Source: Sneathiella glossodoripedis JCM 23214 (GTDB lineage: Bacteria; Pseudomonadota; Alphaproteobacteria; Sneathiellales; Sneathiellaceae). From it: a DNA stretch of 64,000 nt. Of this stretch, positions 6,193-30,789 are shown piece after piece. The notes under the pieces were generated by a model, which did no database searches, had not been told where the DNA came from, and saw only the letters and a list, made by a program, of their open reading frames with translations. The stretch is from assembly GCF_000616095.1 (NCBI RefSeq), contig NZ_BAMS01000001.1:1054001-1118000 (forward strand), read 5' to 3'. Numbering within the stretch: position 1 is the first letter of the stretch; each line of letters begins with the position of its first letter. A program made the position numbers and the translations under genes.

Positions 6193-6304
6193 TGGATTGC
6201 GAATTTGAGTTTTGATCCGTATATGAGCTTTGCGCAAAGCAAGCTCTGTTTGCTGCTCTGCCCCTTATTCTGTTTTCAGTATCTGTAACTCAGGGTGAGT
6301 TCCC

Positions 6305-6520: not shown

Positions 6521-7641
6521 TTGACCTCTGCGCTGCTGTGATCACCCGTGTATTTACAGCTCAGCTTTGCCTGCTGTTGAATTTTCGGCTTGGCAGGTAG
6601 TAAATTTGCGGCTTCTGCGGGCCTGATTGTGATATGGCCCCGGGTCATATTGGCAAGCCACTCGAAATCCCCTTCCTGTGTGCGAGTTGATGCGACACGC
6701 CGCGCCAGATGTCCGGAGCTAAATTTTTCCCTCGCCTGTGCTTGCAGTTCAAACCTGAACACATAGTCGGGTGTCATACCCATGCGCAGGTCCGCTTGCA
6801 TCAGGCTTCCACCCGGCAAATGGCTCAAGCTGTAAAATCCTTTGGTAAAGGATTGCAGAATGTCATGCGCGGGATAATTCTGCAGCGCATCGCAGGTCAG
6901 CTCAAGGGGCCATCGATCATGGCGGTAGAAAAGCTTTTCATCCGCGGATGACACAAGTGGTAGATACAGATTTGTATAGCTTGTGCTTTCAATGGCGATT
7001 GCTTTCCAGGCAAATGTCGTTAAGGGGAGGGGGATGACCAGTATCTGCTCAGGCATAATTCCCCGCTTTGCAAATTGGTCTTTCGCCTCTTGTTCCATCC
7101 AGCTCTGGGCAAGTATCGACCAGCCCAGATATGCTGTTGATAGGGTGAGAGCTGTGACAACAGCTTTGCCAAAACGGCTTGACCATTTGGGACGGATGAG
7201 CGCCCACAGGGTCACCACAAGCAGCGGTAATGTGTATAGCGGATCGATAATAAACATGGATCCAAGCCCAAATGGATAATCCGTAAGGGGCCATAACAAT
7301 TGCGTGCCATAGATTGTCGTCGCATCCAGCAGGGCATGGGTCACAAGGATCAGCCAGACCGCTGCATAGAAGGGCCATCTTGCAGCTTCTGACCCCCCCA
7401 GTAGTTTTCGAAGTCCTTCTGCCAGCAGAGGCGTAATAAGCGTTTGTACAATAATGGAATGGGTCGCAGATCGGTGGCGGACAAAATTTTCCAGTGCGCC
7501 GCCATAGTCCCAAAAAACATCCAGATCGGGGAGTGTCCCCAGCACGCCGCCCGCCAGTGCAGTTTTTCGCAAGCCATATTTGGGTCCAAGAACAGCCGCT
7601 CCCACGGACGCGCCAAGCACAAACTGAGTAACTGAATCCAT
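6517..7641 (-). CDS. Membrane-bound metal-dependent hydrolase (YdjM / DUF457 type)
   Basis: 374 residues. The N-terminal half holds about five membrane segments with conserved polar residues: PDLDVFWDYG (D39, D41) and FVRHRSATHSI (H56, H61), the putative metal ligands of this family. The C-terminal part (about 200-374) is soluble. ATG 7641 has AAGGGTGAG directly upstream; an in-frame start 17 codons earlier is less likely. The substrate is unknown. The family is induced by DNA damage in E. coli, but no LexA site is evident here. Confidence 0.85.
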   Translation of the reverse strand: MDSVTQFVLGASVGAAVLGPKYGLRKTALAGGVLGTLPDLDVFWDYGGALENFVRHRSATHSIIVQTLITPLLAEGLRKLLGGSEAARWPFYAAVWLILVTHALLDATTIYGTQLLWPLTDYPFGLGSMFIIDPLYTLPLLVVTLWALIRPKWSSRFGKAVVTALTLSTAYLGWSILAQSWMEQEAKDQFAKRGIMPEQILVIPLPLTTFAWKAIAIESTSYTNLYLPLVSSADEKLFYRHDRWPLELTCDALQNYPAHDILQSFTKGFYSLSHLPGGSLMQADLRMGMTPDYVFRFELQAQAREKFSSGHLARRVASTRTQEGDFEWLANMTRGHITIRPAEAANLLPAKPKIQQQAKLSCKYTGDHSSAEVN

Positions 7642-7730
7642 TCTCACCCTTTCAAATATGCTGACCCGTATCATATAGACAGCTTGGCGCAAAATACCAG
7701 CGAGAGAATTTACCGATTGATGTGCGGCGA

Positions 7731-8609
7731 TCAGGTGGGCCAGCTATGGCGGGCTGCGGCGCGCATAAAAAGGGATGCCGCGGGTGAATGGGTGCGACCC
7801 GGCATCCAGGTGAGCATGACATCCCTGCTGACTTTCGGATCAATCAGGGGCCGAGTGAGCAATCCATTCATGGTAATGGAAAATTCCGGCAAAAACGCGA
7901 AGCCAAGTTCTGCCAACACCATTCCCTGCACCCAGTCCTCCCTCTCACTTCGAAAAGTGGCGTAAAGTTCAATGTTATGGGCATCGCAAGCCTGCAGAAC
8001 CATTTCGCGCATTTCGCAGGACAGCCTGTCCACATAGGGCTCCTTGGAAAGGTCTTTCAGTCGGATCGATGATTTATCTTTCAAATGATGGTTGGCGGGA
8101 AAGGCGACCACATATTTCTCGCGATAGATTTTTCGCAACCGATAGCGGTTGCTCAGGTCACTGGGGGAGCTCAAGAACGCAAGCTCCAGATTTCCCGCTT
8201 CCAGCTCCGCGCTAATGGTTTCAAAACTGTCTTCGCGAAACTCAATTTCAATCTGCGGGTTATCTTTTTTGAAATCCGCCAGGAAACGAGAGAAGGCGAG
8301 GGGCCCGATTGTCGTCATGACGCCAATTTTCAGGGGCGCTTTATGAAGCAGTCTAAACTCTTCGGCAGCATATTTAACCGATTGAGAGCGTTGGAAAATA
8401 TCTTCCATTTTTGGCTTCATGATGCGACCAAACTCTGTCAGCAATACGGATTTACCCTCCCGAAAGAACAGATCATTCTCTAGCTCGTCTTCAAGTTTTT
8501 TGATCGTTTTTGTCATCGCTGGTTGAGAGACACAGCACTTTTTCGCCGCCTGTGTGAAGTTCAGGCTATCGCAAACTGCAAGAAAGAATTTAATTTCGCG
8601 AAGCTCCAT
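7731..8609 (-). CDS. LysR-family transcriptional regulator
   Basis: 292 residues. The N-terminal winged helix-turn-helix (about 1-60; LNFTQAAKKCCVSQPAMTK) is followed by an LysR substrate-binding domain (about 88-285). ATG 8609 is preceded by GGGGG about 10 bases upstream and matches the usual LysR start (MELREIKFFLAV). It is divergent from the DUF1059 gene across a 134-bp gap, the usual arrangement for a LysR regulator and its target. The inducer is unknown. Confidence 0.92.
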   Translation of the reverse strand: MELREIKFFLAVCDSLNFTQAAKKCCVSQPAMTKTIKKLEDELENDLFFREGKSVLLTEFGRIMKPKMEDIFQRSQSVKYAAEEFRLLHKAPLKIGVMTTIGPLAFSRFLADFKKDNPQIEIEFREDSFETISAELEAGNLELAFLSSPSDLSNRYRLRKIYREKYVVAFPANHHLKDKSSIRLKDLSKEPYVDRLSCEMREMVLQACDAHNIELYATFRSEREDWVQGMVLAELGFAFLPEFSITMNGLLTRPLIDPKVSRDVMLTWMPGRTHSPAASLFMRAAARHSWPT

Positions 8610-8743
8610 GACGATACCCCCTGCGCATCGGGGCAATATGCAATATTTTTCCATAACCAGCGGTTATCATTCCATTCAATTATAAGATTTTTCTAATTTT
8701 ATTCAATTTCGTAAAATGGAGCCCCGATGAAGGAGGATCTGTC

Positions 8744-8917
8744 ATGAAGAAAATTGAATGTAATGACCTGTTTGAAGGCTGCGCATTTCGCGCCTCCGCC
8801 AGTACCGAAGATGAACTTCTGCAAAAGGTTGCAGCCCATGCGGCCAAAGAACACAACATTCAGGAAATCACTCCTGAAGTTTTGGCAAAGGTAAAATCCT
8901 GCATAAAATCCGGATAG
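8744..8917 (+). CDS. DUF1059 small protein
   Basis: 57 residues, beginning MKKIECNDLFEGCAF, with the DUF1059 pattern: conserved Cys near the start, a helical stretch VAAHAAKEHNIQEITPEVLAK and a final Cys (C53). It has a perfect AAGGAGGA 6 bases before ATG 8744, implying strong translation. Function of the family is unknown. Its position opposite the LysR gene makes it that regulator's likely target. Confidence 0.82.
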   Translation: MKKIECNDLFEGCAFRASASTEDELLQKVAAHAAKEHNIQEITPEVLAKVKSCIKSG

Positions 8918-9110
8918 CCAATTCTGACCCCGAAAAAGCGCTTTGCGGGGGCGGAGCATTGATCGGATCCACCGCTTAATGTAATCAACCGACCTTCGCA
9001 AACGCGCATCAAAGCTTATCTCACGCGCCTGTTCGCCCGCTCAAAATATCCCATGAACAGAATATCCACAGAAATCTGATTGAAGAGATTGTATCTTTCT
9101 TATAAATAGT

Positions 9111-9124
9111 AATGTTATAACATT
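9111..9124. promoter_or_regulatory. Palindromic operator candidate upstream of DUF1826 gene
   Basis: AATGTTATAACATT is a perfect 14-bp palindrome, 39 bases before the DUF1826 start. It resembles zinc-uptake-regulator half-sites (TGTTATA), but they are closer together than in the canonical Zur box, so the regulator is only a guess. Confidence 0.45.
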
Positions 9125-9163
9125 TTATTTAAAAATTTGTAGAGAAACAACCGAGTCAAGCTT

Positions 9164-9811
9164 ATGAGTGTATATCAGGCAAACAGCTTGCAAGAGCTGG
9201 AGCAGTTCTCTCAGCGGACAGATCAGTTGGCGGTCTTGCCGCGGGATGTTCCAGAAAATGCAGATGCTTTTTTTGAAAAACTGATAACAACACCTTTTGG
9301 TGTAAATGCAAAGGTGCACAAAAGCACAGCTCTCGATGACATTGCAAAAACCTTGGCTCCCGTCCTGCCCGGCGAGGTCATGGCAGACCCATTTTACCTT
9401 TTCTGGCTGGATGATATGGCAGCCATCTGCAAAACATTCTGTGTAATTGAAAATAGCCCGTCCATTGGGTTCTGGCTCGGAACGGAGCGGGGATGCCGGC
9501 GCTTTCACGTGGATTATGTTCCCCACAGATTGCTCGTAACCTATGCGGGGGAGGGAACTGAATGGCTGCCCGATGACGGTGCCGATCGCACCGCTTTCGC
9601 AAATGGCGCCCCGAACGAAAAAATCGTCAAAAACCCAAAATCACTCAAACACATGAACGTATGGGATATTGCCGTCTTTCGCGGCGGCGCAGGTGGATTG
9701 CTTCACCGTACACCAGACTCCGCCCTAAACGCCCCCTCACTTCTCCTCCGCCTCGACAGCGTCTCTTTCTGGGAGAGAGTAACTCTGCGCGAGCAGAGCT
9801 TGGCGGGATGA
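9164..9811 (+). CDS. DUF1826 domain protein
   Basis: 215 residues matching DUF1826 over nearly the whole length: a central CRRFHVDYVPHRLLVTYAGE, then GTEWLPDDGADR, WDIAVFRG and GGLLHRTP. The conserved His, Asp, Cys and Glu residues suggest metal binding. Members are often linked by context to zinc homeostasis (COG0523 chaperones, Zur), but no such neighbour is in view. A palindrome lies in its promoter region. It is followed by tRNA-Phe on the other strand. Confidence 0.82.
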   Translation: MSVYQANSLQELEQFSQRTDQLAVLPRDVPENADAFFEKLITTPFGVNAKVHKSTALDDIAKTLAPVLPGEVMADPFYLFWLDDMAAICKTFCVIENSPSIGFWLGTERGCRRFHVDYVPHRLLVTYAGEGTEWLPDDGADRTAFANGAPNEKIVKNPKSLKHMNVWDIAVFRGGAGGLLHRTPDSALNAPSLLLRLDSVSFWERVTLREQSLAG

Positions 9812-9870
9812 TCGAGAAAAATCTTATGCCAGGCAATTGGGGGATGGAAATACTTTATTAGTGAAAAAAG

Positions 9871-9946
<76 letters not shown>

Positions 9947-10089
9947 ATCCGGTGCAGGGCTAATGCCTGCGAGGAAGCTGGGTTATAGAAGAAAAAGCGG
10001 GGGCTGTCCATACCCCTTGATGCAAAAAAGATAAAAAATTATGGGGCATCCCTTCGGTGCTCAAAATAGCGGCTGTAGCCCGCCTAACT

Positions 10090-10269
10090 CTAATATTCAC
10101 CCTCTTCATCATTGGCGGGAATTGTCTCCTCCCCGGGGATGGCATAACTTTCATTCAGCCACTTTCCAAGATCCAGTTGCTGACAACGGGCGGAGCAGAA
10201 CGGACGGTATTTCGCCTGGGCGGGTTTGCCACATTGAGGGCATTTGCGGTTTTTAATCTGACTGGTCAT
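10090..10269 (-). CDS. yacG: DNA gyrase inhibitor / zinc-binding protein YacG
   Basis: 59 residues with the YacG zinc motif: C10-x2-C13, then C25-x3-C29 in [17 protein letters not shown], followed by an acidic tail ending GEY. YacG binds GyrB and inhibits gyrase in E. coli. It starts 12 bases after the RNase E/G stop and is clearly co-transcribed with it. Confidence 0.92.
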
Positions 10270-10281
10270 GATATTCGCACA

Positions 10282-11679
10282 TTAGGGGATTTGCGGTGTA
10301 ATTTCAAAGTCATATTCTGCAAGGGCTGGCCCTTCGCCGCTGCTCAGGCGCACGCCCAGATACTGTTCCATTTGGACGCCATACGCCGTAAGGAATGGCA
10401 TGAGCGCCGGTCCCGCTGTCACGGTAAACAAAGCGGATTTATGTCTTTCTTTGTGTCCAGCAAGTGCCCGCAGGAAATCAGTTGCCTGTTTCAGGCTCAC
10501 CCGCCCATTTGTCTCAGGCATGATCAGCTTTTGGGTGTGGTGCAGGGGACTTCTGGTTCGCTTGCGGGTTAGTTGTAGCAGCCCAAGTTCGGTCATTGAA
10601 AAAATGCGCACCCCCGCCGGGTCTGATTGGGTTTCTTTTTCAAATGTCTGGATCAGCTTTGCCACATCATTTTTGCCGTTCATCTGTATGAAATCGATAA
10701 TGATGATCCCGCTCAAATTTCGGACCCGGATCTGATGAGCGATTTCCCGGGCGGCCTGTTCATTCACCTGCCGGGCCAGTTGCTCGTGCGAGCCGCCTTT
10801 GGCCTGCCCGCTATTGACATCAATCACAACCAGAGCTTCGGTTTGTTCGATGGTAATATTAGCGCCAGAATTGAGAGTGATCTGGCGATCTTCCAACCGG
10901 CTTAACTCTTCTTCAAATCCGCAATGCGATACAAGACCGACGGGCTTGTTCCAATGGTCAAACCGGGTGCGCGCGCCCACTCCCCAACCCTTTAGTCTGG
11001 TCTGAAGATTGGCATCATTACTGATGATTTCCAGCTTTTCGGGCGATAAAGACAGCGCCTGAACAAGCAATTGGGGGGCTGGCCGTACAAGCAGGGTTGG
11101 TTTTTTCGCGCTTTTCGCGGCTGACAGAATGCTTTGCCAATGGTCGGCCAGTTGCGCAGCTTCGCTGATTATTTTATCAGCGGGCTCTTTTGCGCCGCGG
11201 CTTCTGACAATGGCACGCCCCTTTATCTGTTCAAGGGCGTTTCGCAATTCGTCTGCTTCGGCATTTTTTGCAAATCCTTTTGGAAACTGAACGCCCTCTG
11301 CCATGGGTTGAAGGCTGACAAAGGCTCCGTCAAGCGTCACTTTGCTGCTGACTTCGGCTGTTTTGTCGTCTTTGGCATCTTTGATGATTTGCAGGGGCAG
11401 ATTGGCGCCCTCTGTGATTTTGCTGCGAATGTCCGCATCTGCTGACTGGCTCTTGGCGATACAATTGCGCGATAGTAACAGGCCAGAGGCACCGCCGGCC
11501 AGTTCAACAAGGGCGCCGTTGATGGTGTCGGAAAACCGCGCAATGCGGGCGTAGTGAATTTCCCCTACTCTGGAATTCTCGAAAGTCGCTTCAAGCTCGT
11601 AATCAAGCAGTCTGTCATTTTCAAGCAGCAGTGTTCGCGTCTCAAACAGGCTTTGTTCGATCAGCAGTTTGACGCTCAT
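10282..11679 (-). CDS. rng: Ribonuclease E/G family endoribonuclease
   Basis: 465 residues. An S1-like RNA-binding region lies near the N-terminus (about 36-70) and the catalytic DNase-I-like core holds the two metal-binding Asp residues in VVIDVNSG (D287) and IIIIDFIQM (D329). It acts in rRNA and mRNA processing in the cytoplasm. The paired-cysteine zinc link (CPxC) that joins subunits in E. coli RNase E is absent: the equivalent region after RKRTRSPL reads HHTQKLIMPETNGR. The long scaffold tail is also missing, so this is the short RNase G-like form. Its ATG overlaps the maf stop by 4 bp. Confidence 0.93.
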   Translation of the reverse strand: MSVKLLIEQSLFETRTLLLENDRLLDYELEATFENSRVGEIHYARIARFSDTINGALVELAGGASGLLLSRNCIAKSQSADADIRSKITEGANLPLQIIKDAKDDKTAEVSSKVTLDGAFVSLQPMAEGVQFPKGFAKNAEADELRNALEQIKGRAIVRSRGAKEPADKIISEAAQLADHWQSILSAAKSAKKPTLLVRPAPQLLVQALSLSPEKLEIISNDANLQTRLKGWGVGARTRFDHWNKPVGLVSHCGFEEELSRLEDRQITLNSGANITIEQTEALVVIDVNSGQAKGGSHEQLARQVNEQAAREIAHQIRVRNLSGIIIIDFIQMNGKNDVAKLIQTFEKETQSDPAGVRIFSMTELGLLQLTRKRTRSPLHHTQKLIMPETNGRVSLKQATDFLRALAGHKERHKSALFTVTAGPALMPFLTAYGVQMEQYLGVRLSSGEGPALAEYDFEITPQIP

Positions 11680-12301
11680 GAGTTGTCTGCATCCATAAGT
11701 TGGCTATGGGTCCAAACGTTAAAGCTGTTTCCGTTTAGCAGATTGGATACCTCAAATAGCGGAAGGCCGACAATATTGCTGTAAGAGCCTTGTATTTGCC
11801 GCACAAACAAACTGCCAAGACCCTGAATGGCGTAGGCGCCCGCTTTTCCCTGCCACTCTCCACTGGCTATATAATTGCGAATGTCAAAAGGGTCGAGATG
11901 CTTGAAGGTCACGTGCGAGGTGACGCATTTACTGATTTGCCGCCCATCCGGCGTGATAAGGGAAATACCCGTATGAACCGGTGTTTACGGCCCGACAGCA
12001 TTTTTAAGTACCGCTTTGCCTCGGTTTCATCTGTGGCCTTGCCCAGATCCCTGCGGCCTATAGCGACGACGGTATCCGCCGCCAGAACAAAGGCCCCGTG
12101 ATGGCGAGAGGCTGTTACCGCCGCTTTTTCATGGGCGAGTCTGTGCGCCAGATGCCGGGGCAACTCACCTGATTTTGCCATTTCCGCAATATCAGCGGGA
12201 TCAATGACATCTGGTGTAATACCTATTTGAGAGAGAAGCTCTTTGCGCCGCGGCGAAGCTGACGCCAGAACAAGCTTTTGGGAGTGGGGAGTATCTGTCA
12301 T
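11676..12301 (-). CDS. maf: Maf-like nucleotide pyrophosphatase (frameshifted)
   Basis: The N-terminal part has LVLASASPRRKELL and LAADTVVA, the Maf signatures for substrate binding and catalysis. The C-terminal part continues in another frame from about 11978 with TFKHLDPFDIRNYI, EWQGKAGAYAIQG and YSNIVGLPL. One extra base at about 11978 (probably CGGGTT for CGGTT) joins them into about 208 residues, the family size. Maf proteins hydrolyse non-canonical or modified nucleoside triphosphates. It sits between infA and RNase E/G in the conserved cluster. Confidence 0.88.
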
Positions 12302-12370
12302 TCTTTTGCGTGTTTTTCAGCCCCGTATGACAGGCATGCGGGTGTGAGCGTTCCAACCACTCCGCCAGAC

Positions 12371-12589
12371 TTACTTGAAGCGGAACGTAATGCGGCCTTT
12401 TGTCAGGTCGTATGGAGTCATTTCCACTGTGACGCGATCGCCTGCCAGAACACGAATGCGGTGTTTGCGCATTTTGCCGGCTGTATGAGCGAGCACTTCA
12501 TGATCATTTTCCAGCTTCACGCGAAACATAGCGTTTGGAAGCAGTTCAGTTACAGTACCTTCAAATTCAAGCAGTTCTTCTTTTGCCAT
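12371..12589 (-). CDS. infA: Translation initiation factor IF-1
   Basis: 72 residues, exactly the usual length, beginning [19 protein letters not shown] and forming a single S1-like OB fold. IF-1 occupies the ribosomal A site with IF-2 and IF-3 during initiation. AAGG lies just upstream of the ATG. A 144-bp gap separates it from the phosphatase gene, and maf follows after 69 bp. Confidence 0.97.
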
Positions 12590-12732
12590 AAATAACCTTG
12601 CATAGCTGTTAAAACTCGCGTGCAAAATGCGGCCAGTCACACCAAAAAGCAAGCTTTTGTTTAAGAAAACCTGACGAAAAGCTTCATTTGGTCGGCATTT
12701 TCGCCGCAATTGCTCCCACAGTATACCATATT

Positions 12733-13182
12733 TTACACCAAAGGGTGAGGGGCAGTTGAAAAGCGGCTCTTGATTTTCTGGTATAGATCATCGCGGACCT
12801 GTCGGTATGCGTTTAGGCGCATCTCGCGGTTACCTTCCACTTCAGATGGATCCGGCGTGATCCAGAACTCCACAGCACAATGCATGGTTCTGGTCATCTC
12901 CTCCGCGTGGGATTTAGCAGGTTTTGACAGACAGATGATCAGATCAAATGAGGTGTCTTCCAATTCATCGAAATTTCGGGACAGATGATTTTCCACATCA
13001 AGACCAATTTCATCCATCACCTCAATGGCAAAGCCATCAATTTCGGTAGCCTTGACCCCAGCGCTCGTTACATAAATGCGATTGCCATACAGGCTTCGCA
13101 TGATGGCTTCCGCCATGGGGGAGCGAATACTGTTATGGGTGCAGGCAAACAGGACACTGGTGGGATTTTGAAATTCATCCAT
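12733..13182 (-). CDS. Low-molecular-weight tyrosine phosphatase / ArsC-like protein
   Basis: 149 residues. The P-loop C14-THNSI-R20-S (CX5R) near the N-terminus and the later [11 protein letters not shown] with the general-acid Asp define the LMW phosphatase / thioredoxin-type arsenate reductase fold. In this genomic position alphaproteobacteria keep a member whose true substrate is unclear. ATG 13182 has GGGGAG 5 bases upstream; an in-frame start 12 codons earlier (13218) is also possible. Confidence 0.85.
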
Positions 13183-13235
13183 ATGCGCTCCCCATCCACA
13201 GGGTTGCGGCATGATCACTGACAGGGATACTCATG

Positions 13236-13718
13236 TCAGCCTCTGATATGCAGGACACAGATAAGGGTGAAAAGCCGTCTGGCGGTATCGAAATCCGTTT
13301 CGATCTTGCCTTTCAATCTTTCGAGCAACATCTCCGTTCCTTCGTTGTGAAGGCCACGTCTGCCCATATCGATGGCTTCGATTTTTGACGGGCTCGCTGT
13401 TTTGATGGCGGAAAAGTAACTTTCGCAGATATGAAAGTAATCCTTGATGATGCGCCGAAAGGAAATGACAGGCAGTGGCAGGCGCAGATATTCCTGCTCG
13501 TCATCCTCAGCGCGGATGTCGAAAATCAACCGGTTATCTTCAATCGACAGATGCAGCGAAAATGGTCCCGCATCGGGGTCTTCACACAAGGCAAACTGAT
13601 TGCGATCCAGAAGGTCATATATGGCGACCTTCTGCTCATGCTCGATATCAGCATTCCGGCGTACAACTGATTTTTCATCCAGTTTGATTTTGACGATTTG
13701 CTGATGATCCGCAGTCAT
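13236..13718 (-). CDS. UPF0262 family protein
   Basis: 160 residues matching UPF0262: EHEQKVAIYDLLDRN, PFSLHLSIEDNRLIFDIR, SFRRIIKDYFHICESYFSAI and IDMGRRGLHNEG. The family is almost confined to alphaproteobacteria and is found next to hisD and the LMW phosphatase, as here. Function is unknown. It starts 14 bases after the hisD stop. Confidence 0.9.
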   Translation of the reverse strand: MTADHQQIVKIKLDEKSVVRRNADIEHEQKVAIYDLLDRNQFALCEDPDAGPFSLHLSIEDNRLIFDIRAEDDEQEYLRLPLPVISFRRIIKDYFHICESYFSAIKTASPSKIEAIDMGRRGLHNEGTEMLLERLKGKIETDFDTARRLFTLICVLHIRG

Positions 13719-13732
13719 TTTTTTGTCCTTGT

Positions 13733-15039
13733 TTAGCTTTTCATGTTCAGCCGAATGGCAATGGACAGGGCATGTGCTCCAAGCCCCTCGGATTGAGCCA
13801 GTTTAACCGCTGGTGGTCCGATCCTGTTGAGTCCATCCGCATTGAGTTTAATCATTGAGGAGCGTTTCATAAAGTCAAGTGTGGAGAGACCTGATGAAAA
13901 CCGTGCTGTTCTGGCTGTCGGCAGGACATGGTTTGGGCCGGCAATATAATCACCGATGGCCTCTGGTGTATATCTGCCCAGAAAAATAGCGCCTGCATGC
14001 CTTATTTGCGCAGCCAGACTGTCCGGATCTTCAATGCACAGCTCCAGATGTTCTGGTGCAATACGGTCAATCAGGCAGGTGCCGCCGACAGATTTTCAAT
14101 AACGATGATCGCTCCGTAATCATTCCAGCTTGTTGCCGCAATTTCAGTCCGCGGCAGCGATTTCAGGTGATGCTCGACCGCCGCTTCCACTTCTTTTGCA
14201 TAATCTGCGCTATCCGTAATCAGGATACTTTGGGCGACGGGGTCATGCTCCGCCTGTGACAGCAGGTCAGCTGCAATCCAGGCCGGGTCATTCTGATCAT
14301 CTGCGACCACCAGAATTTCGGACGGTCCGGCAATCATATCAATGCCGACGGTGCCGAAAACCTGTTTCTTCGCTGTCGCGACATACGCATTGCCCGGGCC
14401 GACAATCTTGTCCACCGCTGCGATGCTGTCTGTGCCATAGGCCAGCGCGGCGACGGCCTGCGCCCCGCCAATACGATATATTTCATCCACACCGCATAAA
14501 TCGGCAGCGGCCAGTACCAATGGATTGATATTGCCATCCGGGGTTGGCACAACCATAACCAGACGACTGGCGCCTGCGACTTTTGCCGGAATGGCATTCA
14601 TCAAAACGGAAGAGGGATAGGTTGCAAGCCCGCCCGGCACGTAAAGGCCCACATTTTCGATCGGAGTCCAGCGATATCCAAGCTCAATCTGATCCTCATC
14701 CACGTAAGAGAGGTCATCAGGACGCTGTTTCTCGTGGTAAGATCTGATCCGGTCCGCAGCTATTTTCAGGGCATCAAGTGTTTCTGGATCGCACGCGTGA
14801 ACGGCCGCGCTCACCTCGGACGCGCTGACTTTCAGCTCTTCTGCTGTTGACAGAGTTAGCCGATCAAAACGGTTGGTATAGTCGATGACAGCCGCATCAC
14901 CGCGCGCTCTTACATCGGCGATGATTTCGGCAACAGCCGCATTGACATCCGCATCCGTTTCGCGCTTTTGGCCCAAAAGATCCATAAAGCCGGCTTCAAA
15001 CGTGGCGTCTTTTTCAAATAACTTATTCACCATCGACAA
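13733..15039 (-). CDS. hisD: Histidinol dehydrogenase (frameshifted)
   Basis: Carries out the last two oxidation steps of histidine synthesis. The main frame (15039 to 14071) has the HisD core: [49 protein letters not shown] and [12 protein letters not shown]. Near 14078 it runs to a stop, but one added base restores [12 protein letters not shown] and a normal C-terminus with GPNHVLPT, ending at 13733, about 435 residues in all. The gene overlaps the hisG end by 17 bp. An essential anabolic gene broken by one base points to a sequence error. Confidence 0.92.
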
Positions 15040-15685
15040 CTTCCCGGAATTTTTCGATCCAGCCGTTCAACTCCACAGACCGTGTTTTAAGTGCTGCCCG
15101 GTTCACGACCAGCCTTGACGTGATATCAAGGAGTTTCTCAACCTCCACCAGTCCATTGGCTTTTAGTGTTGCGCCGGAGGATACCAGATCCACAATCCGG
15201 CGGCAGAGGCCAAGGCCAGGGGCCAGCTCCATCGCACCGGACAGTTTGATGCATTCTGCCTGAATGCCCTGATCTGCGAAAAACGCTTTGGTCAGGTTAG
15301 GGTATTTGGTGGCAATGCGCACATGGCTCCAGCGGGTCGGATCCCGGTCTTCTTCCATGTCAGCGGGTTGCGCCACTGCCAGATAGCAATGGCCGATATC
15401 CAGATCTACCGGCGCATAGATTTCGGGATAGTTATGTTCCAGCAATACATCATTGCCGGCCACACCCAATTGCGCAGCACCAAAAGCGACAAAAGTTGCG
15501 ACATCAAAAGAGCGCACACGGATAATGGAAATATTGGGATGGTTTGTCTTGAAATGGAGCAGGCGGCTTTGTGGATCATCGAAGGCAGGTTCAGGCTCAA
15601 TGCCGACAGCACGAACCAGCGGCATAACCTCTTTGAGAATGCGACCCTTGGGCAGGGCAATGACCAAATCTTCACTTGTGGGCAC
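15023..15685 (-). CDS. hisG: ATP phosphoribosyltransferase, short form
   Basis: 220 residues. It contains [22 protein letters not shown] and a C-terminal phosphoribosyl-binding stretch [22 protein letters not shown]. It catalyses the first step of histidine synthesis, joining ATP and PRPP. The short form lacks the regulatory ACT-like domain and normally needs a HisZ partner, which is not in this window. It overlaps hisD by 17 bp. Confidence 0.95.
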
Positions 15686-15756
15686 TTTATTGCTCCATAA
15701 ACTTAAGGCTGTCTGGTGTTGACATGCCCTCTTTTAATCTGAATTTTTAAAAAAGG

Positions 15757-16200
15757 CTAATTTTCCAAATCGTGGGTTGGAATTTTATCTGTCGTCCAGG
15801 GCTCTCCAGAGTCTGTGAGGGCGACGTTGATGCATTCCACGGTCAGCTCCAGCTCCCTGTCATCTGCGAATATGAGGGAGATTTGATGCAGTCCCTCTTC
15901 GGCTTCCTTGCAATGAATAGACAAAAGCTCCATGCCCAAAGTTGGAATGTCACGGGGAATCCCGCGTGAGCGAATGTTCATGATATCTGCAATGAGCACC
16001 CCGCAGCGAATTCTGCTGGCCTCTCGCGGCGTGCGTTCGGATGTTTTTTCCCAGCGCATACGCGATACCGTCAGGGATAGCTGGCGCGCCTTGGCGGCAT
16101 AACTTATCTCGCCCGGGCTGGTGATCGCCCCTTCAAGAGCGGCTGAAATCACCTGCAGATCATCAACGTCCATCGCATATAATTTAAGCAAATCGGTCAC
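15757..16200 (-). CDS. DUF2948 family protein
   Basis: 147 residues. It begins LLKLYAMDVDDLQVISAALEGA and ends with a C-terminal ECINVALTDSGEPW, both typical of DUF2948, a family found mainly in alphaproteobacteria. Its place between murA and hisG is conserved. No function is known. It lies 24 bp after murA and 71 bp before hisG. Confidence 0.88.
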   Translation of the reverse strand: MTDLLKLYAMDVDDLQVISAALEGAITSPGEISYAAKARQLSLTVSRMRWEKTSERTPREASRIRCGVLIADIMNIRSRGIPRDIPTLGMELLSIHCKEAEEGLHQISLIFADDRELELTVECINVALTDSGEPWTTDKIPTHDLEN

Positions 16201-22768: not shown

Positions 22769-22843
<75 letters not shown>

Positions 22844-22908
22844 TTTAAACCCTTGAAAATCATAAAATAATGGATTTAAACTAGATCCACGAGTTTATCT
22901 GTTTGAAT

Positions 22909-22930
22909 AATTCGTGGGGATTTTCGTGGG
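22909..22930 (+). repeat. Left arm-type integrase sites
   Basis: Two TTCGTGGG boxes (22911-22918 and 22923-22930) in a 22-bp block identical to 28227-28248 near the other end. The block lies just before the integrase start. Paired identical boxes at both ends are typical arm-type sites for the integrase N-terminal domain. Confidence 0.7.
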
Positions 22931-22939
22931 GGAATAATC

Positions 22940-23968
22940 ATGGCTGTATACCTTCCAAAAGGCGCAAAGACCTATGTGATGGACTTTGAGTTATTCGGGC
23001 GACGATACAAGCAATCAACAGGTGAGGTCGCCAAGGGCAAGGCGAAAAAAGTCGAGGAAGAATTCAAGGCGGAAATAAAAGCGCGGTACAAGAAGTTCGG
23101 TGATGTGCAGGTGCCTACATACTGGGAAGCTACTGAGTATTATCTAAAACTTCGGGAAGCGCCTATAGGGCAAGGAAAAGGTGCGATTGCAAGAGATAGC
23201 GCTTACCACACTCGGTTCGTTGAGTATATTGGTGCTAGTACGCCGATCGATAAAATTACAACTCCACATCTGTCAAAGTATGTTGAGCAACGCCTTTCTG
23301 GCGATGATACGCGCAGAGGGGTTAAAGTTAGTTCAGTGAAGCGCGAGTTGAGTGTTCTTAAAGCCGTATTAAATAGAGCAATAGATATTTGCCCAGCTTA
23401 TACTTTGCCCGCTTTCCCCAAACTAAAAGACAATGCTGTACGAGTTCGCTATTTGTCTGATGACGAAGAAACGGCATTGATGGCTGTCTTGCCGAAGTGG
23501 TTGAAAGATGTCGTTGTCTTTGCATTACATACTGGAGCAAGGAAGCAAGATATTCTTGATTTCAGATGGCGTGATGTAATTTGGCAAGATGGTAAACCGT
23601 CATCAGTACGAATTCCTAAACCTAAGTCAAGAAACCCCTACCGCGTACCAGCGAATAAGACTTTGGTTAGTTTGTTGGAGGGTTTGAGTTCGAGAGAAGA
23701 TGGGGATTCGTCCCATGTTTTCAGGGCTAGTCATGGCGGACCAATACTAGACCCGACTAGAGCATGGGAAAAGGCAGTAAATGCTGCTGAAATTGAGGAT
23801 TTTGTATTTCATGACTTAAGGCATACTTTCGCTAGTCGCCTTGTAATGAAAGGTGTTGGTTTTAAGCATGTACAGGAGCTAATGGGCCATTCTAATATAC
23901 AGATGACACTTAGGTATGCCCACTTAGCTCCTAGTGCACTTGATGACGCTGTGTATGCTTTAGATTAA
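22940..23968 (+). CDS. int: Tyrosine recombinase / phage integrase
   Basis: 342 residues. An N-terminal arm-binding part (about 1-55), a core-binding domain (about 57-160) and a catalytic domain with R201 (HTGARKQDIL), K229, H291-x-x-R294 (HDLRHTFASR), H317 (GHSN) and nucleophile Y326 (LRYAHL). All catalytic residues are present, so it should be active. It is read in the same direction as tRNA-Thr, 97 bp after it. Its stop overlaps that of the convergent excisionase-like gene by 4 bp. Confidence 0.95.
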   Translation: MAVYLPKGAKTYVMDFELFGRRYKQSTGEVAKGKAKKVEEEFKAEIKARYKKFGDVQVPTYWEATEYYLKLREAPIGQGKGAIARDSAYHTRFVEYIGASTPIDKITTPHLSKYVEQRLSGDDTRRGVKVSSVKRELSVLKAVLNRAIDICPAYTLPAFPKLKDNAVRVRYLSDDEETALMAVLPKWLKDVVVFALHTGARKQDILDFRWRDVIWQDGKPSSVRIPKPKSRNPYRVPANKTLVSLLEGLSSREDGDSSHVFRASHGGPILDPTRAWEKAVNAAEIEDFVFHDLRHTFASRLVMKGVGFKHVQELMGHSNIQMTLRYAHLAPSALDDAVYALD

Positions 23969-24249
23969 GCAGTCATAAGCTCTTTTATTCTTTCGCTAAT
24001 ACTCTGCTGAGTAATAGGTGAGTTAAGATAATTGTTCTCTGGTTTGAAAAGCGGTTTGGGTGAAGATCCGCTATAGGGTGTTAAATTTTTAGGACTAATT
24101 CGAGTCTGAGCTAAATATGTGAGAAGATCGTCTTTGAGATATCTTGGAGATCGTCCAATATAATGGCGGGGTATCTCAAGACGAGATAATTGTCGAACTG
24201 ATATACTTAGATACTCAGCTGCTTCTGTTCGTGTTAATATTTCTGTCAT
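23965..24249 (-). CDS. AlpA/Xis-like helix-turn-helix protein
   Basis: 94 residues. The first half is a MerR-like winged helix: LTRTEAAEYLSISVRQLSRLEIPRHYIGRSPRYLKDDLLTYL without gap in the protein, split here only for naming the motif TEAAEYLSIS and the RSPRY wing. Such proteins are excisionases or activators of integrase genes. The tail (about 55-94) is polar and unrecognised. Its place convergent to int supports a directionality role. Confidence 0.8.
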   Translation of the reverse strand: MTEILTRTEAAEYLSISVRQLSRLEIPRHYIGRSPRYLKDDLLTYLAQTRISPKNLTPYSGSSPKPLFKPENNYLNSPITQQSISERIKELMTA

Positions 24250-24410
24250 TTGTGGCCTTTGGCTTTAGCGCAGATCCACCAATTAGAACATAGAGGTGGA
24301 GCCAGAAGGTCTGCAAAGATAAATTCCTCTGGTATTAGGATCACAAATAGAAGAAGCACCTTGGAAGTCGGAAGGGGTAATGTCTAATTTGACGGATTGT
24401 GACTTTGTCT

Positions 24411-25286
24411 TCACGAAATATCGTCGGTCTGTACTTTAAGCTCAGCCAACCAGCGCAGGTAGGACAAACCTTGTGAGACCAATAATACAGTCAACTCTTC
24501 AGGTGGTTGCAGTGGTTCGTTGGTGCCGGAAGCGTGGCGAAATTCGTGCACTCCATCTGCCCAGTCGATCAATGCTTCAACCAGTTTCAAGGATGATCTC
24601 CTCGTGTTGTGGTTTCTGTTACCTGAGAACAGTTTTTCGATTGCGGGTTTAAGGTTGTTTTGGAGATTGGATTTATTCATTTGAGGGGCTTTTGGGAACA
24701 TCTGCTTGAAAAGGTTCTCAACAGCTTCAAAGATGTTTTTTATAGCAGTCTTACCATCTAAGGGATTTAACAGTAATGCTCGTTCAGCAGTCTCCACATG
24801 CTGGCGTTCTGTTGCAAATTCGGGTGAGTTCAATTTTCGTATAGTAGTTACGCGTACATTTTCAAACTCTTCGTCAAACTTTGGATGAATGCCGCCTTTT
24901 TCGTCCAGTATGTACCCAACGTTGCATTCGTCAAAGATGCGTTGAATTTCAGATCTTACATTAGCAATCTTATTATATCTCTTATTTGTTCTCGAGAAGC
25001 GATACAATAGCGTAACAATATGAAGTAAATCCACAATTTCTACTGAGTTTGCGACTTCTTCATAAGGGAAATAGCGACCTTCCACTCCGCTGCGTAATAC
25101 CGGTAAACCCAATTCTGCTTCAACTAGGTTGCCAAACTCCCACGCATCTTCCCGCCGATGTGAAGCTACTTTTTCAAAGAGCTTACTCAAACGAAATCTC
25201 ATTCGAGGGTTATCTTTAAGAGGCGCGCCTGCTTGTATATAGTTTTGAGCGTACAAGCCACCGATAACAATGTTTTCCTTTGCCAA
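24411..25286 (-). CDS. Unknown protein, possibly abortive-infection-like (Abi_C-type end)
   Basis: 291 residues, no signal peptide or membrane segment, largely helical. The C-terminus (about 240-285) has HEFRHASGTNEP followed by a hydrophobic helix VLLVSQGLSYLRWL. This recalls the R-H-G plus helix end of Abi_C/AbiJ-type proteins found as cargo in mobile elements, but the match is by eye and weak. In the element it lies between the excisionase-like gene and the resolvase, with 161- and 180-bp gaps, so it is probably transcribed alone, as cargo genes are. Confidence 0.5.
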   Translation of the reverse strand: MAKENIVIGGLYAQNYIQAGAPLKDNPRMRFRLSKLFEKVASHRREDAWEFGNLVEAELGLPVLRSGVEGRYFPYEEVANSVEIVDLLHIVTLLYRFSRTNKRYNKIANVRSEIQRIFDECNVGYILDEKGGIHPKFDEEFENVRVTTIRKLNSPEFATERQHVETAERALLLNPLDGKTAIKNIFEAVENLFKQMFPKAPQMNKSNLQNNLKPAIEKLFSGNRNHNTRRSSLKLVEALIDWADGVHEFRHASGTNEPLQPPEELTVLLVSQGLSYLRWLAELKVQTDDIS

Positions 25287-25466
25287 TGATAAGTTCCCCG
25301 ACTAAGTGTCTCAGTTGGTTATCTGTATCACCTTTAAAGGGTGGTTGTGAAGAGTGCTCGATATGGTGGTGGCTCTACTCTTGCTGCATTAACCGCGCTA
25401 TCAAGTAATCTCAGAGAGAACTAAAAAAACAGTCTCAGGGGCTCACATATGAACCGCTGTACAAAT

Positions 25467-26021
25467 CTAATCGTTTAGCAACACTCTGTAGACAGACGCC
25501 CTGCCGATGCCTAATTCTTTAGCGATCTTTGTAGCCCCCAAGCCTTGCTCTCTTAGCTCTCGCACCCTGTCAGCATCTATAGACGCTTTACGCCCCTTGT
25601 AGACGCCCTTCTCCTTCGCCTTGGCTATCCCCTCCATCTGCCTTTCCTTCCTTAAGTTAGTCTCGAACTCACTGAAGACTGACAGCATGTCTAGGAAGCA
25701 TTTCCCTGCTGATGTGGAGGTATCTATAGGCTGTTCAGTGGCCTTGAGGACTACTCCTTTTTGATTGAGTTCGTAGACTATGTTCTGAAGGTCTCGAACT
25801 GATCTAGCGAGCCTATCGACTCTCGTGACCACTAGCACGTCACCCTCCCGGATAAAGTCTAGTAGGTTCTTAAGTTCATCTCTGCCTTGCACAGAAGCAC
25901 CTGAGACTTTCTCCGTCCTGATTAGCTCACAGCCTGCCGCTAATAGAGCCTCTTCTTGAATAGTTAGATCTTGGTCTACTGTACTTACTCGTGCATACCC
26001 GTATATCATCAACCGCCTCAT
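25467..26021 (-). CDS. Serine recombinase (resolvase/invertase family)
   Basis: 184 residues. The catalytic domain begins IYGYARVSTVDQDL with the nucleophile Ser (about residue 12), has VVTRVDRLARSVRDL and SEFETNLRKERQMEGIAKAK, and ends in a C-terminal helix-turn-helix (GLGATKIAKELGIGRASVYR). It is full length for the Tn3/Hin type. Starts at 26021 or 26009 are both possible. A second recombinase inside a tyrosine-integrase element may resolve multimers or come from an older insertion; no res site or inverted ends were found. Confidence 0.93.
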   Translation of the reverse strand: MRRLMIYGYARVSTVDQDLTIQEEALLAAGCELIRTEKVSGASVQGRDELKNLLDFIREGDVLVVTRVDRLARSVRDLQNIVYELNQKGVVLKATEQPIDTSTSAGKCFLDMLSVFSEFETNLRKERQMEGIAKAKEKGVYKGRKASIDADRVRELREQGLGATKIAKELGIGRASVYRVLLND

Positions 26022-26144
26022 ATTGTATTTTTAGGGTCTAGAGATGAGAGTCTAATGCCTCAGAATCCCGTTAACAACCCTAATAATACAACTAACGTGT
26101 CTCAGTGAGTCGTATCGTATGGGTATGACCTATTAAGATTGAGC

Positions 26145-26609
26145 TCAGTTACTCCCAAACTCCATAAAGCTAACATAATACCTATTTATTTCCCATTTGA
26201 GCTTGAACGGATCAATGCCACTATCCAAAGGTGCTGCCCAGCATGAAGCATATCCCTCTTTGGGAGGCAGTATTCTATCGCTCTCATAACTATGTGAGTT
26301 TGTGAGATTTTTACTATGTCTGGGTTTAGTAGCTTTAAGGTAAAAAGTAATAGATTCTAATGTGCGATATGAGCCGTTTCCGACGAATACTCTTATAGGC
26401 CAACGCTTATCTTTACACGCCTCGTTGTCTATCGACACTAATACATCAACTTGAGATTCTGGATATTCTTCTGTCACATACCTAAATGCAAATAGAGCGA
26501 CCACTACCACAGCCACTAGAAGAAAGCACACCAAAGCTATTTTGGCTACCAGCTTCAATACGCCTCGGATCACCAGCATAACTGCTTCAGCTCGTTCCTC
26601 TGGCGTCAT
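26145..26609 (-). CDS. Small single-span membrane protein
   Basis: 154 residues from ATG 26609, which has AAGGAAGAG just upstream. One strong transmembrane segment (about 17-42) is followed by a mostly beta domain with two Cys residues (in NEACKDKRWP and GYASCWAAPL). I do not recognise the family. It sits between the resolvase and ATPase genes of the element, on the same strand. Confidence 0.6.
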   Translation of the reverse strand: MTPEERAEAVMLVIRGVLKLVAKIALVCFLLVAVVVVALFAFRYVTEEYPESQVDVLVSIDNEACKDKRWPIRVFVGNGSYRTLESITFYLKATKPRHSKNLTNSHSYESDRILPPKEGYASCWAAPLDSGIDPFKLKWEINRYYVSFMEFGSN

Positions 26610-26694
26610 CACTCTTCCTTGAATTAATCTCAACACAAATTAACTTATAGGAATATATCTTAAAACTTGTAAAGCGTTCAACTATAAACACTCT

Positions 26695-26865
26695 ATGACT
26701 AAGGCCATAGAAAAGAAGGCAAATCTTCAATTACAACCAAATGTCTTTGTAGATGTGCTTGCCGCTCTAAACAGATATCATGGGATAGGAAACATCCTTG
26801 AATTTCAAATCCCTGAACACCACAGTTTTCCTAGAGGTTTCCACGTTTCCACCCTAGTAGAGTAA
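26695..26865 (+). CDS. Short hypothetical ORF in the element
   Basis: 56 codons from ATG 26695 to TAA 26865, beginning MTKAIEKKANLQLQPNVFVD, in the otherwise empty 313-bp gap between two divergent-facing genes. No Shine-Dalgarno is visible. The helical N-terminus could be a small regulator, but coding status is unproven. Confidence 0.3.
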   Translation: MTKAIEKKANLQLQPNVFVDVLAALNRYHGIGNILEFQIPEHHSFPRGFHVSTLVE

Positions 26866-26922
26866 AGAAACATGGAAACTCCTATCTCGAGCTAGCTCTC
26901 GAGTCGTTACAAAGAGGATAAA

Positions 26923-27915
26923 CTAGAAGTCGTCAAAGAAGGCTTGGTTATCCTCTCGGACGTCCTTGGCTTCTTCAAAGCATTTCTGCTTCTCCTCACT
27001 CGTAAACAACCCTTGCTCATATGCCTTTCTCAGAACCTTGGATACCTCACCTGTACTCCATTTCAGACCTTCACTTACTTCCTTCTGTGAAGCGTATTCC
27101 CTTGATCTGATCGCCTCAATAACTTCGTAAACCTTTCCTAGTTGGGGTATCTCATATTCCCACCCAGCTTCACTGAGGGTTACGTTTCTAGTATCCGTTT
27201 CACGTGACTTCTTGTTTCGAAACTTATCGAACTCTAGGGTAAAGCTCGTGCCAGCTCCCTCTACTGGTAGAAGTCTGATAGAACAACTGAGAAGCACACT
27301 TAGAACCTGAGAACCCCTGAAGCTCGCATCCCCTTTGGTGTTCCCTTTACGAGTATGGTGTACCATGAGAACAGCACAGCCCGTTCTGCTGATCATCCTC
27401 ATGAGGTGTAAGGTGTCATTCCAAGAGGATGCATCGTTCTCATTATCAACTTGAGCTAATGTGGACAGGTTGTCGAAGATCACCAGTTTAATGCCTTCTT
27501 TTCTAATCCTATCCAGAATGACCTCATGATCTTCATCATTTGAAAGTACAGGCCAATCTGTGGAGGTAGATTGGTCTTGGAAGGCTAGGAACGATAGGTT
27601 CTGATTGGCGCTGGTTAGGTCAATGCCTGAGATAGTGCTGGAGAGGAGTTTAACCCGTTCCTGCAAATCGAATACGCCCATTTCCCCATCCACGATAAGG
27701 ACCTTGTGAGGCTCATCGCACTTCCACCCTAAGAACTCTCCACCACCAGCAACGGCTAATCCAAGGGATAAGGCAAACATGGATTTACCAACACCACTAG
27801 GAGCATAAACCATGTTAATCTGTTCAGTGGTTAGCCAAGACCCTAGTAAAGGTATAGGTCTGGGAATATCAGCGTTAATCAACTCTTCCATGGTCCTATA
27901 TTTAAGCTTACTCAT
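26923..27915 (-). CDS. RepA-like AAA ATPase (RecA-fold, AAA_25)
   Basis: 330 residues. Walker A is APSGVGKSMF (about 38-47), Walker B is KLVIFDNLS (about 148-156), and MVHHTRKG with RGSQVLS is the pattern of hexameric replicative helicases such as RSF1010 RepA. The C-terminal part (about 265-330) looks like a winged helix (SQKEVSEGLKWSTGEVSKVLRKA). It probably unwinds or replicates the excised element. It is the first gene after the right end. Confidence 0.85.
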   Translation of the reverse strand: MSKLKYRTMEELINADIPRPIPLLGSWLTTEQINMVYAPSGVGKSMFALSLGLAVAGGGEFLGWKCDEPHKVLIVDGEMGVFDLQERVKLLSSTISGIDLTSANQNLSFLAFQDQSTSTDWPVLSNDEDHEVILDRIRKEGIKLVIFDNLSTLAQVDNENDASSWNDTLHLMRMISRTGCAVLMVHHTRKGNTKGDASFRGSQVLSVLLSCSIRLLPVEGAGTSFTLEFDKFRNKKSRETDTRNVTLSEAGWEYEIPQLGKVYEVIEAIRSREYASQKEVSEGLKWSTGEVSKVLRKAYEQGLFTSEEKQKCFEEAKDVREDNQAFFDDF

Positions 27916-28334
27916 TCATACATCTTTCTGTTTGGAACGCCCTTACCCTCCGAAGACAGAAAGGCACTACATTGGGCAAGGGCGCTCGTTGCTCTAGCTG
28001 GAGATCAGCCAGCGAGCAGGGATTAAGTTATAGGTTGGTGTGCACCGCTCATTCGCGGTTCTTCTGTCTGTAGGATGTCAAATAAGATTACTAAGGTGGG
28101 CTTTGTTCATGCTGAGCTAAAGTTGTCATCCACTAACCATCAGCCCCCCCCCCAGGGGGGAAGTAGTCTAAGACGTTCGAATAAGTTTACAGCCACATAA
28201 AATTCCCTGTAGAAATATACCCTATCAATTCGTGGGGATTTTCGTGGGAAATCAGTTCTCATATAGACCTATGTAGTCTTGAGTGGTCCCACGAATAACG
28301 CTAGAATGACCCGTTTTTAAGGGGTGTGGTGCCT
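27916..28334. other. Right-end non-coding region of the element
   Basis: No gene is visible. It holds an imperfect inverted repeat around 27987-28017 (GCTCGTTGCT against AGCCAGCGAGC), a C10-A-G7 tract at 28144-28161, the right arm-type sites at 28227-28248 and one inverted CCCACGAA at 28288-28295. Being next to the RepA-like gene it could contain a replication origin, but no iterons are evident. Confidence 0.5.
28227..28295 (+). repeat. Right arm-type integrase sites
   Basis: TTCGTGGG occurs at 28229-28236 and 28241-28248 within the 22-bp block also found at 22909-22930. An inverted copy, CCCACGAA, lies at 28288-28295. They are 40-106 bp inside attR. Confidence 0.7.
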
Positions 28335-28379
28335 TTGGTAAGGGAGAGGCCGAGAGTTCAATTCTCTCCGGCGGCACCA
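28335..28379 (+). repeat. attR: 45-bp copy of tRNA-Thr 3' end
   Basis: Identical to 22799-22843, without the 5' half of a tRNA before it. It marks the right boundary, after which the chromosome resumes with the MCP gene. Confidence 0.93.
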
Positions 28380-28494: not shown

Positions 28495-30789
28495 ATGATG
28501 TATCAGCAGCAGATTTTACCGCAGGAAGTTGTATCCCAAGGGTCGGTGTCCGGTGGGTGGGGGCGGCGGTTTCTGTCGGTCTTTACCGCGCGTATCGGGG
28601 TGAAGCTGGCGCTCGCGTTTGCGCTCGTGGTGGGTTTTAACGGCTTGAGTACGCTCGTCAGTCTGCAGACAGTCAATGAGTTGCAGGAACAGACGGGCCA
28701 TGTATCCAAAGAGGCGTTGCCCGCCTTGTTGACAGGAATGAGCGTAAAGGCGGATGTGGCGGCGTTGAACCAGTTGAACATGGTATTAACGGCGGCAAAC
28801 AGCACCGCCACCCTTGATGAGTTGGAGCCACAGGTTTTTCAGATTTTATCCGCCATGGAGCAGGAGCTTGCCAGCCTTGCAGCGCGGACCCGATCGCAAA
28901 AGTCAGCTCACCTATCGGCGCAGCTTGGGCAGTATCGATTGGAACTTGAAAATGTGATCCGCCTGAAGAGGACCCATCTGATGCGCGAGCGGTCATATGC
29001 CGAGCTGGAAGCGGGATTGGCCGCGGCTTATGGCGCTCTGTCGCAAGTGGTGCAACCGATTGGCATCAATACGTTATTTGATTTGCAGACGTCGCTGCGC
29101 ACACTTGCGCAGAGCTCGGATGTGGAGCAGACAGGTATTCGCCTGGCCGATCGGGAAGTGAATGCCATTTCCTACGCATCCACATTGATAGCCTCCGCCA
29201 ATCTGGTGGTGGCAAATGTCAAGGAACTGGCCCGATTGCAGGAGAAGTCCGCCATTTTCAAGCTGCGCCGGCAAAATAGCCGGGATCTTGGGCGGCTGAC
29301 GTCTGCGGCGCGTGGGTTTGTGGGGCAGGACGCGGCGGAGAAATTGCGGCCGGTGGTTGCTGAATTTGCTGCCTATTTCGTCCGCAAATCGGATCGCAAC
29401 CTGTTTGATCAGCGGGCCAAACTGGCAGAGCAGGAACAAACGCTCATTCAGACCAGTGCCAAGAGTGTGGCACTGCTGGCGACCATCAGCGGTGAAATTG
29501 ATGATCTGGCGGCTGCGCTTGGCAGCAGGACTTTGTCGGGGATTGAAAAATCCAGTCAGCAGGCGCGTCAGGCGGTGAATTTATTGCTGCTGCTTGCGGT
29601 GGGAATTGTGGTCGCATCGGTGGTGATCCTCGCTGTCATGGTGCGGCGAAATATTGTGCAGCGGCTGAAAACTCTGGCGGGATATATGCAGCAACTGGCC
29701 CGGGGGGAGACGGATTTTCGGGTTTCTGTATCTGGTGTTGATGAAATTGCCCGCATGGCCAGACAGGTTGAGTTCTTCAGGTTGACGGCAGTGGAAAAAG
29801 AACGGCTTGCCCGCGCTGCGGCCGAGACGGAGGAGAAGGCCCGAAAAGCTGAGGAGGATCGCCGCGAACAGGATCGCCAGCGAGAAGAAACCCGGCGGCG
29901 GCAACTGCGCGAACAGGAACAAAAAGCGCGGGAGGAACGACGGGCTGCATTAAATGAACTGGCATCGACCTTGGAGGAAAATACCAAGCGGGTGCTGGGG
30001 GATGTGATTGAGGCCGCGGAGGGAATGCGCCATACCGCGACCGTCGTTGCCGGCTCATCCCGTGATACGCGCGAGCAAAATATGTCAGTAGTTGCTGCCG
30101 CTGTGCAAAGCCATTCCAACATGCAGGCGGTGGCCGCTGCAACAGAAGAGCTGGTGGCGTCACTACAGAGTGTGCGCGATTATGTTCGCACCTCCCACGA
30201 AGCCTCACTGCAAGCGCAGTCGAGCGCAGCGCAGTCCCATGAGACTGTCGGCAGTCTCGCACATGCGGTGAGTGCCGTGGATGAAAGTGTCTCGCAGATT
30301 GAGGAAATTGCCAGTCAGACCCATTTGCTTGCCCTGAATGCGGGAATTGAAGCCAGTCGGGCGGGGGCGGCAGGTCGCGGATTTGCCGTGGTTGCCCAGG
30401 AAGTGAAAAAACTGGCGACGCAAACTGCCACTGTGACAGGGGGCATTACCGATAGTATTAAACTTATTCGGCAGGAAACCGGGCACGCGCAGGCATCGTC
30501 TTCGGAAATTCTGGAATTGATCGAGGGAATGTCACAGACGGTGACGCAGATATTTGAAACCATTGATGCCCAGACCGAAACGGTTACTGAAATTGCGCGA
30601 AATGTCCATGACGCGGCAAATGACGCAGGGCATATCGAACAGGGGGTCGAGACGGTCAATCGCGCGATTGAAAATTCGGAAAGCGAAATTCAGGTCACGC
30701 GCCAGAAATCTGAAGAACTGATGGACAAGGCACATAAACTTGAGAGGCAGGTGGCATCCTTCCTCGAAGAGGTGCGCGCAGACGCGTAG
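28495..30789 (+). CDS. Methyl-accepting chemotaxis protein
   Basis: 764 residues. First membrane segment about 37-57, a long helical periplasmic domain, second membrane segment about 360-383, a HAMP domain (about 384-430), a very charged coiled coil rich in Glu and Arg (about 432-490), and the signalling domain to the C-terminus. The hairpin tip [20 protein letters not shown] lies near 603-622. There is no C-terminal CheR-tethering pentapeptide. It would modulate CheA and so the flagella encoded further right. The ligand is unknown. CAGGTG precedes the ATGs at 28495 and 28498. Confidence 0.94.

Follow-up and report, generated by a model that had tools for sequence, protein, structure and literature searches.

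A 64,000-nt stretch of Sneathiella glossodoripedis JCM 23214 (contig NZ_BAMS01000001.1, positions 1,054,001 to 1,118,000 of the forward strand), here called the window, contains an element of 5,536 bp, measured from repeat start to repeat start, whose integration target is tRNA-Thr(ggt), and the question raised by this locus is which protein is served by the short boxes repeated at both ends of the element. The original prediction, made from the sequence letters, had taken them for arm sites of a lambda-like integrase, a proposal which is supported by their two-sided placement, their conservation in a related element, their recurrence elsewhere and the position of one pair at the edge of a conserved module. 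Since the boxes flank the attachment (att) core, are kept in number, orientation and spacing next to different cargo and recur at another tRNA, it is very probable, on the sequence evidence gathered here, that these TTCGTGGG boxes are arm-type sites bound by the heterobivalent tyrosine integrase (Int) which the element itself encodes. This kind of site is known, and the element is a further example of it.

Box pairs at both ends of the element

The left pair, found by sequence match at 22909-22930 on the forward strand, reads AATTCGTGGGGATTTTCGTGGG and holds two TTCGTGGG boxes 12 bp apart, while the right pair, at 28227-28248 on the same strand, is identical to it and forms the outer edge of the conserved right module described below. 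A single inverted box, CCCACGAA, lies at 28288-28295 on the reverse strand, in the same place as in the related element of a second genome of the genus (G015). The identical 22-bp blocks and the extra inverted box were thus found as had been claimed. Both pairs also fall just inside the att sites, the distance from the att repeat to the pair being 65 nt on the left and 83 nt on the right. Repeated short boxes therefore lie inside the element on both sides of the core, as in a lambda-type attP, in the window as well as in G015, and the predicted attP span between the outer box edges is 240 bp.

The octamer itself is not rare. Six exact TTCGTGGG octamers occur in the window, five of them being the boxes of the element and the sixth lying outside it (30194-30201), and when one mismatch is allowed there are 53 sites against 49 expected, so that the octamer alone is not enriched. 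An identical pair of 22-mers, by contrast with the single box, is expected by chance only about 1e-6 times in ~5.8 kb with uniform bases. With its 4-nt spacer left free, the pair has exact matches at these two places only in the genome of 3.63 Mb, one further site having two mismatches, and the fixed 20-mer is found at these two sites only with up to 3 mismatches. The possibility that the boxes are frequent elsewhere in the genome, which would have told against the proposal, does not hold for the pair. The signal is the pair together with its placement, and not the single octamer.

Conservation in a related element with different cargo

The G015 genome carries an element of 14,314 bp at the same tRNA-Thr, and its integrase is 70% identical to that of the window. 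All five boxes recur there with their offsets unchanged (0, 12 and 59 nt in the right arm), and the predicted attP again spans 240 bp. The cargo of this element is different: its genes, at 2741-15772 of locus L039 (G015:C1:30000-49500), encode HsdR, HsdM and HsdS-type proteins of a type I restriction-modification set, an HNH protein and a serine recombinase. Ungapped comparison of the two right ends in bins of 25 nt gives an identity of 0.16-0.40 beyond the pair, which rises abruptly to 0.96 at the pair itself and is 0.56-1.00 further inward, indicating that the conserved right-hand module starts at the box pair. Among 24 genomes of the genus searched, including that of the window, the exact pair was found in two, the window genome and G015, twice in each. 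An empty site was sought with the right-flank DNA, and none of the 23 other genus genomes matched.

Recurrence in viral and genome collections

The IMG/VR collection was scanned with the pattern TTCGTGGGN4TTCGTGGG, the reversed pattern serving as control. An integrase lay within 500 bp in 7 of 58 loci (0 of 49 for the reversed pattern), and anywhere in the retrieved locus in 9 of 58 (2 of 49). These seven loci represent fewer lineages, since the integrases of L109 and L113 are near-identical, and one of them, L083, is ambiguous, because FVGDFVG could be encoded by its pair when read in frame with the integrase. The seven do not include L078 and L091, whose integrases lay outside the loci first fetched and which were reached through the search of whole records. 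Many of the other 51 loci, where no integrase is within 500 bp, are probably coding repeats, since two TTCGTGGG boxes at 12-bp spacing can specify FVGxFVG. In a Clostridia contig, four clustered tRNA genes have a TTCGTGGG pair at a distance of ~60 nt (L174, 6929-6948), and no integrase was found in the retrieved stretch.

Nine whole records, picked for having a box, were then searched with up to 3 mismatches, and box groups were present on both sides in four of them (G408, G409, G411 and G412). One of these, G409, is an IMG/VR record of 18,464 bp; its 45-bp att repeats, in tRNA-Pro(ggg), are exact, and TTCGTGGG pairs lie inside both of them, the span amounting to 253 bp. G408 is arranged in the same way, with tRNA-Pro(ggg) next to its right pair, but its record begins too near the left pair for a repeat to be visible. 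In G411 and G412, two further lineages, int has two box groups beside it, which span 230 and 240 bp between their outer edges. For G409 a core between the box groups is demonstrated, and for G411 and G412 it is presumed; the G412 locus, unlike that of G411, has a tRNA T-loop-like stretch, recognized by motif, between them. The box recurs, yet its exact form is not widespread.

The integrase and its predicted N-terminal domain

The integrase (342 aa; 22940-23968, forward strand) matches PF00589 with E=3.7e-27, and its residues R201, K229, H291, R294, H317 and Y326 are invariant in six integrases, in keeping with the R-K-H-R-H/W-Y catalytic set of tyrosine recombinases. The model of the whole protein has a mean predicted local distance difference test score (pLDDT) of 67.6, with lambda Int as the top Foldseek row. 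A separate model of the 62 N-terminal residues consists of two strands and a helix, in the order strand-strand-helix. When compared with VIA-align, three arm-binding domains (3rmp, 3jtz and 3ju0, at Z 4.4, 4.0 and 3.9) were within the top six rows, interspersed with unrelated-looking rows and an AP2 domain. Residues of about 1-53 are a predicted arm-binding domain, which in the model weakly resembles the solved ones.

Alternative explanations

Several observations weigh against assigning the boxes to Int. The model of the N-terminal domain is of modest quality (mean pLDDT 73, predicted template modelling score 0.47) and its matches are weak, the best reaching Z 4.4, while Foldseek gave no hit for it at E 0.001. 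In five of the nine whole records (G405, G406, G407, G410 and G413) a close pair is present on one side only; the integrase of G413 is identical to that of G405, and a second match in G405, with three mismatches on the other strand, was not counted. Furthermore, the reversed control gave 3 matches in eight virus records, compared with 16 for the pattern itself. A tighter pattern, TTCGTGGGNWTTTTCGTGGG, retrieved 14 contigs from the genome collection, only one of which has an integrase beside the pair, identical to an IMG/VR integrase already found. In the genus, G013 has a pair with one mismatch and no tRNA within the fetched 3-kb locus. As regards integration host factor (IHF), sites were sought between the core and the arm boxes; those in the window arms are not above shuffles, one G015 arm is, and no convincing site is common to the arms of both.

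Moreover, a direct-repeat site could also belong to a recombination directionality factor (RDF), and the pairs might be bound by such a helix-turn-helix (HTH) protein instead of Int. According to PMC7498355, the sites of Apl and other RDFs are direct repeats spaced by one helix turn, and the window and G015 elements each encode an excisionase-like protein, albeit with matches below the family cutoffs. Nevertheless, both arms carry the pairs, with one common orientation, and the four other records mentioned have them on both sides, while in lambda the RDF sites lie mainly in one arm and the same would be expected here. In addition, the HTH proteins of the window and of L204 share 20 of 79 aligned residues next to the same boxes, a weak argument, as the integrases share little more. 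An RDF as the ligand in place of Int is considered improbable. The left pair stands directly before int and overlaps its ribosome-binding region, as would an operator, so the pairs could also belong to a regulator of int or of cargo genes and be near the ends by coincidence; the right pair, however, is 312 nt upstream of the start of the AAA_25 gene in the window and 3' of the neighbouring gene in G015, a difference in gene context which leaves no shared promoter, and the number and spacing of the boxes track the att core and not the genes. This makes an operator function very unlikely. Finally, since such octamers are common and a TTCGTGGG pair with 12-bp spacing may code for FVGxFVG, chance, or a shared duplication with no function, has to be weighed, but the 1e-6 expectation for an identical 22-mer pair in 5.8 kb and the arrangement kept in G015 leave this with hardly any probability.

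Proposed mechanism and comparison with known systems

If the boxes are the arm sites of Int, excision would join both ends into an attP of about 240 bp. Its order would be the right pair plus the inverted box (P-like arm, three boxes), the tRNA-Thr core and the left pair (P'-like arm, two boxes). The int-distal, P-like arm of 105 nt (28227-28331, forward strand) was delimited by comparison with G015, and the int-proximal, P'-like arm, from the att repeat to the int start codon (22844-22939, forward strand), by alignment with it. Int would bridge the arm boxes, bound by its N-terminal domain, to the tRNA, with its core-binding and catalytic domains working at the anticodon-loop core; the direction of the reaction would be determined by the HTH protein, whose gene is convergent with int. 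A gap of 9 nt separates the left pair from the int start codon, and the second (inner) box of this pair touches a Shine-Dalgarno-like GGGGGA six bases before the int ATG. This position makes autorepression probable, Int on the left pair lowering its own expression. Promoter-like sites at 22844-22882 are weak, matching 9 of 12 positions, with 5 such sites in the stretch against 3.3 in shuffles.

A close parallel in organization is offered by lambda, whose Int binds arm-type sites with its N-terminal domain and the core with other domains, and whose attP has five arm-type sites (PMC4880445), the window element having five exact boxes. The integrase is heterobivalent and the sites are in both arms in lambda and, by our proposal, in the window element, which has three boxes int-distal and two int-proximal and no clear IHF sites found in its arms. 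In the KplE1 prophage, with intS at argW, int comes after the tRNA and shares its orientation, and arm sites adjoin the int start, a layout for which its authors predict negative autoregulation (PMC2951348); the window is alike in layout and differs in its target, tRNA-Thr(ggt). The arm-binding domains of the HPI, HAI7 and P4-like integrases (PDB 3jtz, 3ju0 and 3rmp) have a predicted fold likeness to the window N-terminus at Z 3.9-4.4, with 12-14% sequence identity over 49-50 residues. The P22-like integrase of Salmonella phage ST160 is 34.8% identical to that of the window over residues 130-342; unlike the window, its fetched locus has no TTCGTGGG pair within three mismatches.

No study of this integrase family was found in the literature, which does not prove its absence from print; in PMC4814525 and PMC12150760 the box sequence lies within primer sequences, and none of the 12 of 234 papers listed by a broader search contains CCCACGAA. 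The present results supply an explicit 8-bp motif for the family, together with the phasing of the boxes and a full prediction of the 240-bp attP, with a natural difference in cargo as support.

Box sequence and the N-terminal domain

The integrases of L106, L118, L086 and L204 are 26-30% identical overall to that of the window, and their N-termini share with it a pattern like MxxY...YxxDFxxxGxR...T. In these same four loci the arm boxes overlap the last int codons, encoding a PTKxPT-type tail. All four are closer to the window integrase in the N-terminal than in the C-terminal part, and the reverse holds for all 51 others compared (Mann-Whitney p=0.0005), a test which is weak, since the 51 were mostly fetched by whole-protein similarity and the four TTCGTGGG integrases are related, and which was made after seeing the data, with L113, L103 and L083, where boxes are present, in neither group. 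In L103 and L113 the N-terminal identity to the window is just 25% and 20%, with TTCGTGGG present. N-terminal similarity alone was tried as a predictor of the box and failed, Rhizobium phage RHph_I3_18 (L061) having the tandem box TTCACACGGA with period 12.

Five further named phages (L289-L293) had no exact TTCGTGGG in the fetched loci. In this group, phiLM21 (L289, 3009) and VSN-002 (L290, 2546) have TTCGGGACT- and TCCGGGACT-type pairs, respectively, with period 11, the VSN-002 pair being inside the 3' end of int, and L292 has TCGAGGCG at period 12, while the fetched loci of L291 and L293 have no exact tandem of such kind. The integrases of phiLM21 and VSN-002 share an SPYxxxDFQVGG start, and their period-11 pairs are similar. 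Relatives of the integrase were also sought with short peptide patterns, with none confirmed in the genome or viral contig collections.

In a wider survey, 130 candidate loci were reduced to 59 integrase representatives at 70% identity, 51 of them not fetched by box. At period 11, exact tandem 8-mers were found beside int in 17 of these 51, where control windows in 48 loci predict ~1.05; at period 12 the count is five, with 2.0 expected. Either or both periods are present in 20 of the 51. For periods 10-13, with eight dropped rows included, the count was 31 of 59, whereas shuffles gave 2.8 and control windows 4.6 of 54. Many of the surveyed boxes hold a C or G run, e.g. TGTCCC.

It is possible, if on balance somewhat doubtful, that arm boxes constitute a readable code which travels with the integrase N-terminal domain, independently of the target site, and which can be read beside many such integrases. 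Under such a code, TTCGTGGG in its 12-bp phase would serve integrases only ~26-30% identical at different tRNA genes, and other N-terminal subtypes would use other boxes at 11 or 12 bp. The correspondence between box and domain is only suggestive, as one close N-terminal relative uses another box. The data suggest that arm and core (tRNA) sequences can change independently across lineages; if so, arm recognition could be approached by exchanging N-terminal domains. The tandem-box signal may also help to locate the ends of mobile elements.

Target site and gene content of the element

The tRNA-Thr(ggt) gene (22769-22843, forward strand; ARAGORN) is intact at the left end. The left att repeat (22796-22843, forward strand; direct repeat D1) is its 48-nt 3' part, from the anticodon stem-loop onward, and the right att repeat (28332-28379, forward strand) is identical to it in 47 of 48 positions, with one mismatch. 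The gene of the excisionase-like HTH protein, a candidate RDF (23965-24249, reverse strand; HTH_17 E=8.4e-5 and TIGR01764 E=0.0021, both below cutoff), is convergent with int, their ends overlapping by 4 bp. It is followed, on the same reverse strand, by a cargo open reading frame (ORF) of 291 aa (24411-25286), with no match in Pfam, PHROGs, PADLOC or NCBIfam, a serine resolvase/invertase-type recombinase (25467-26021; PF00239 E=1.3e-40), a cargo ORF of 163 aa with no family match (26145-26636) and an AAA_25 ATPase (26923-27915; PF13481 E=2.6e-29), presumably RepA/helicase-like, judging by the family name. Near the right end, at 28145-28162, a C run, a short A stretch and a G run could pair as a hairpin. 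The same genome encodes a second tyrosine integrase next to a tRNA-like sequence (L005, region of C12:613159-613857); two TGTCACA copies 11 bp apart stand just upstream, and this integrase is possibly part of another element with arm boxes of its own.

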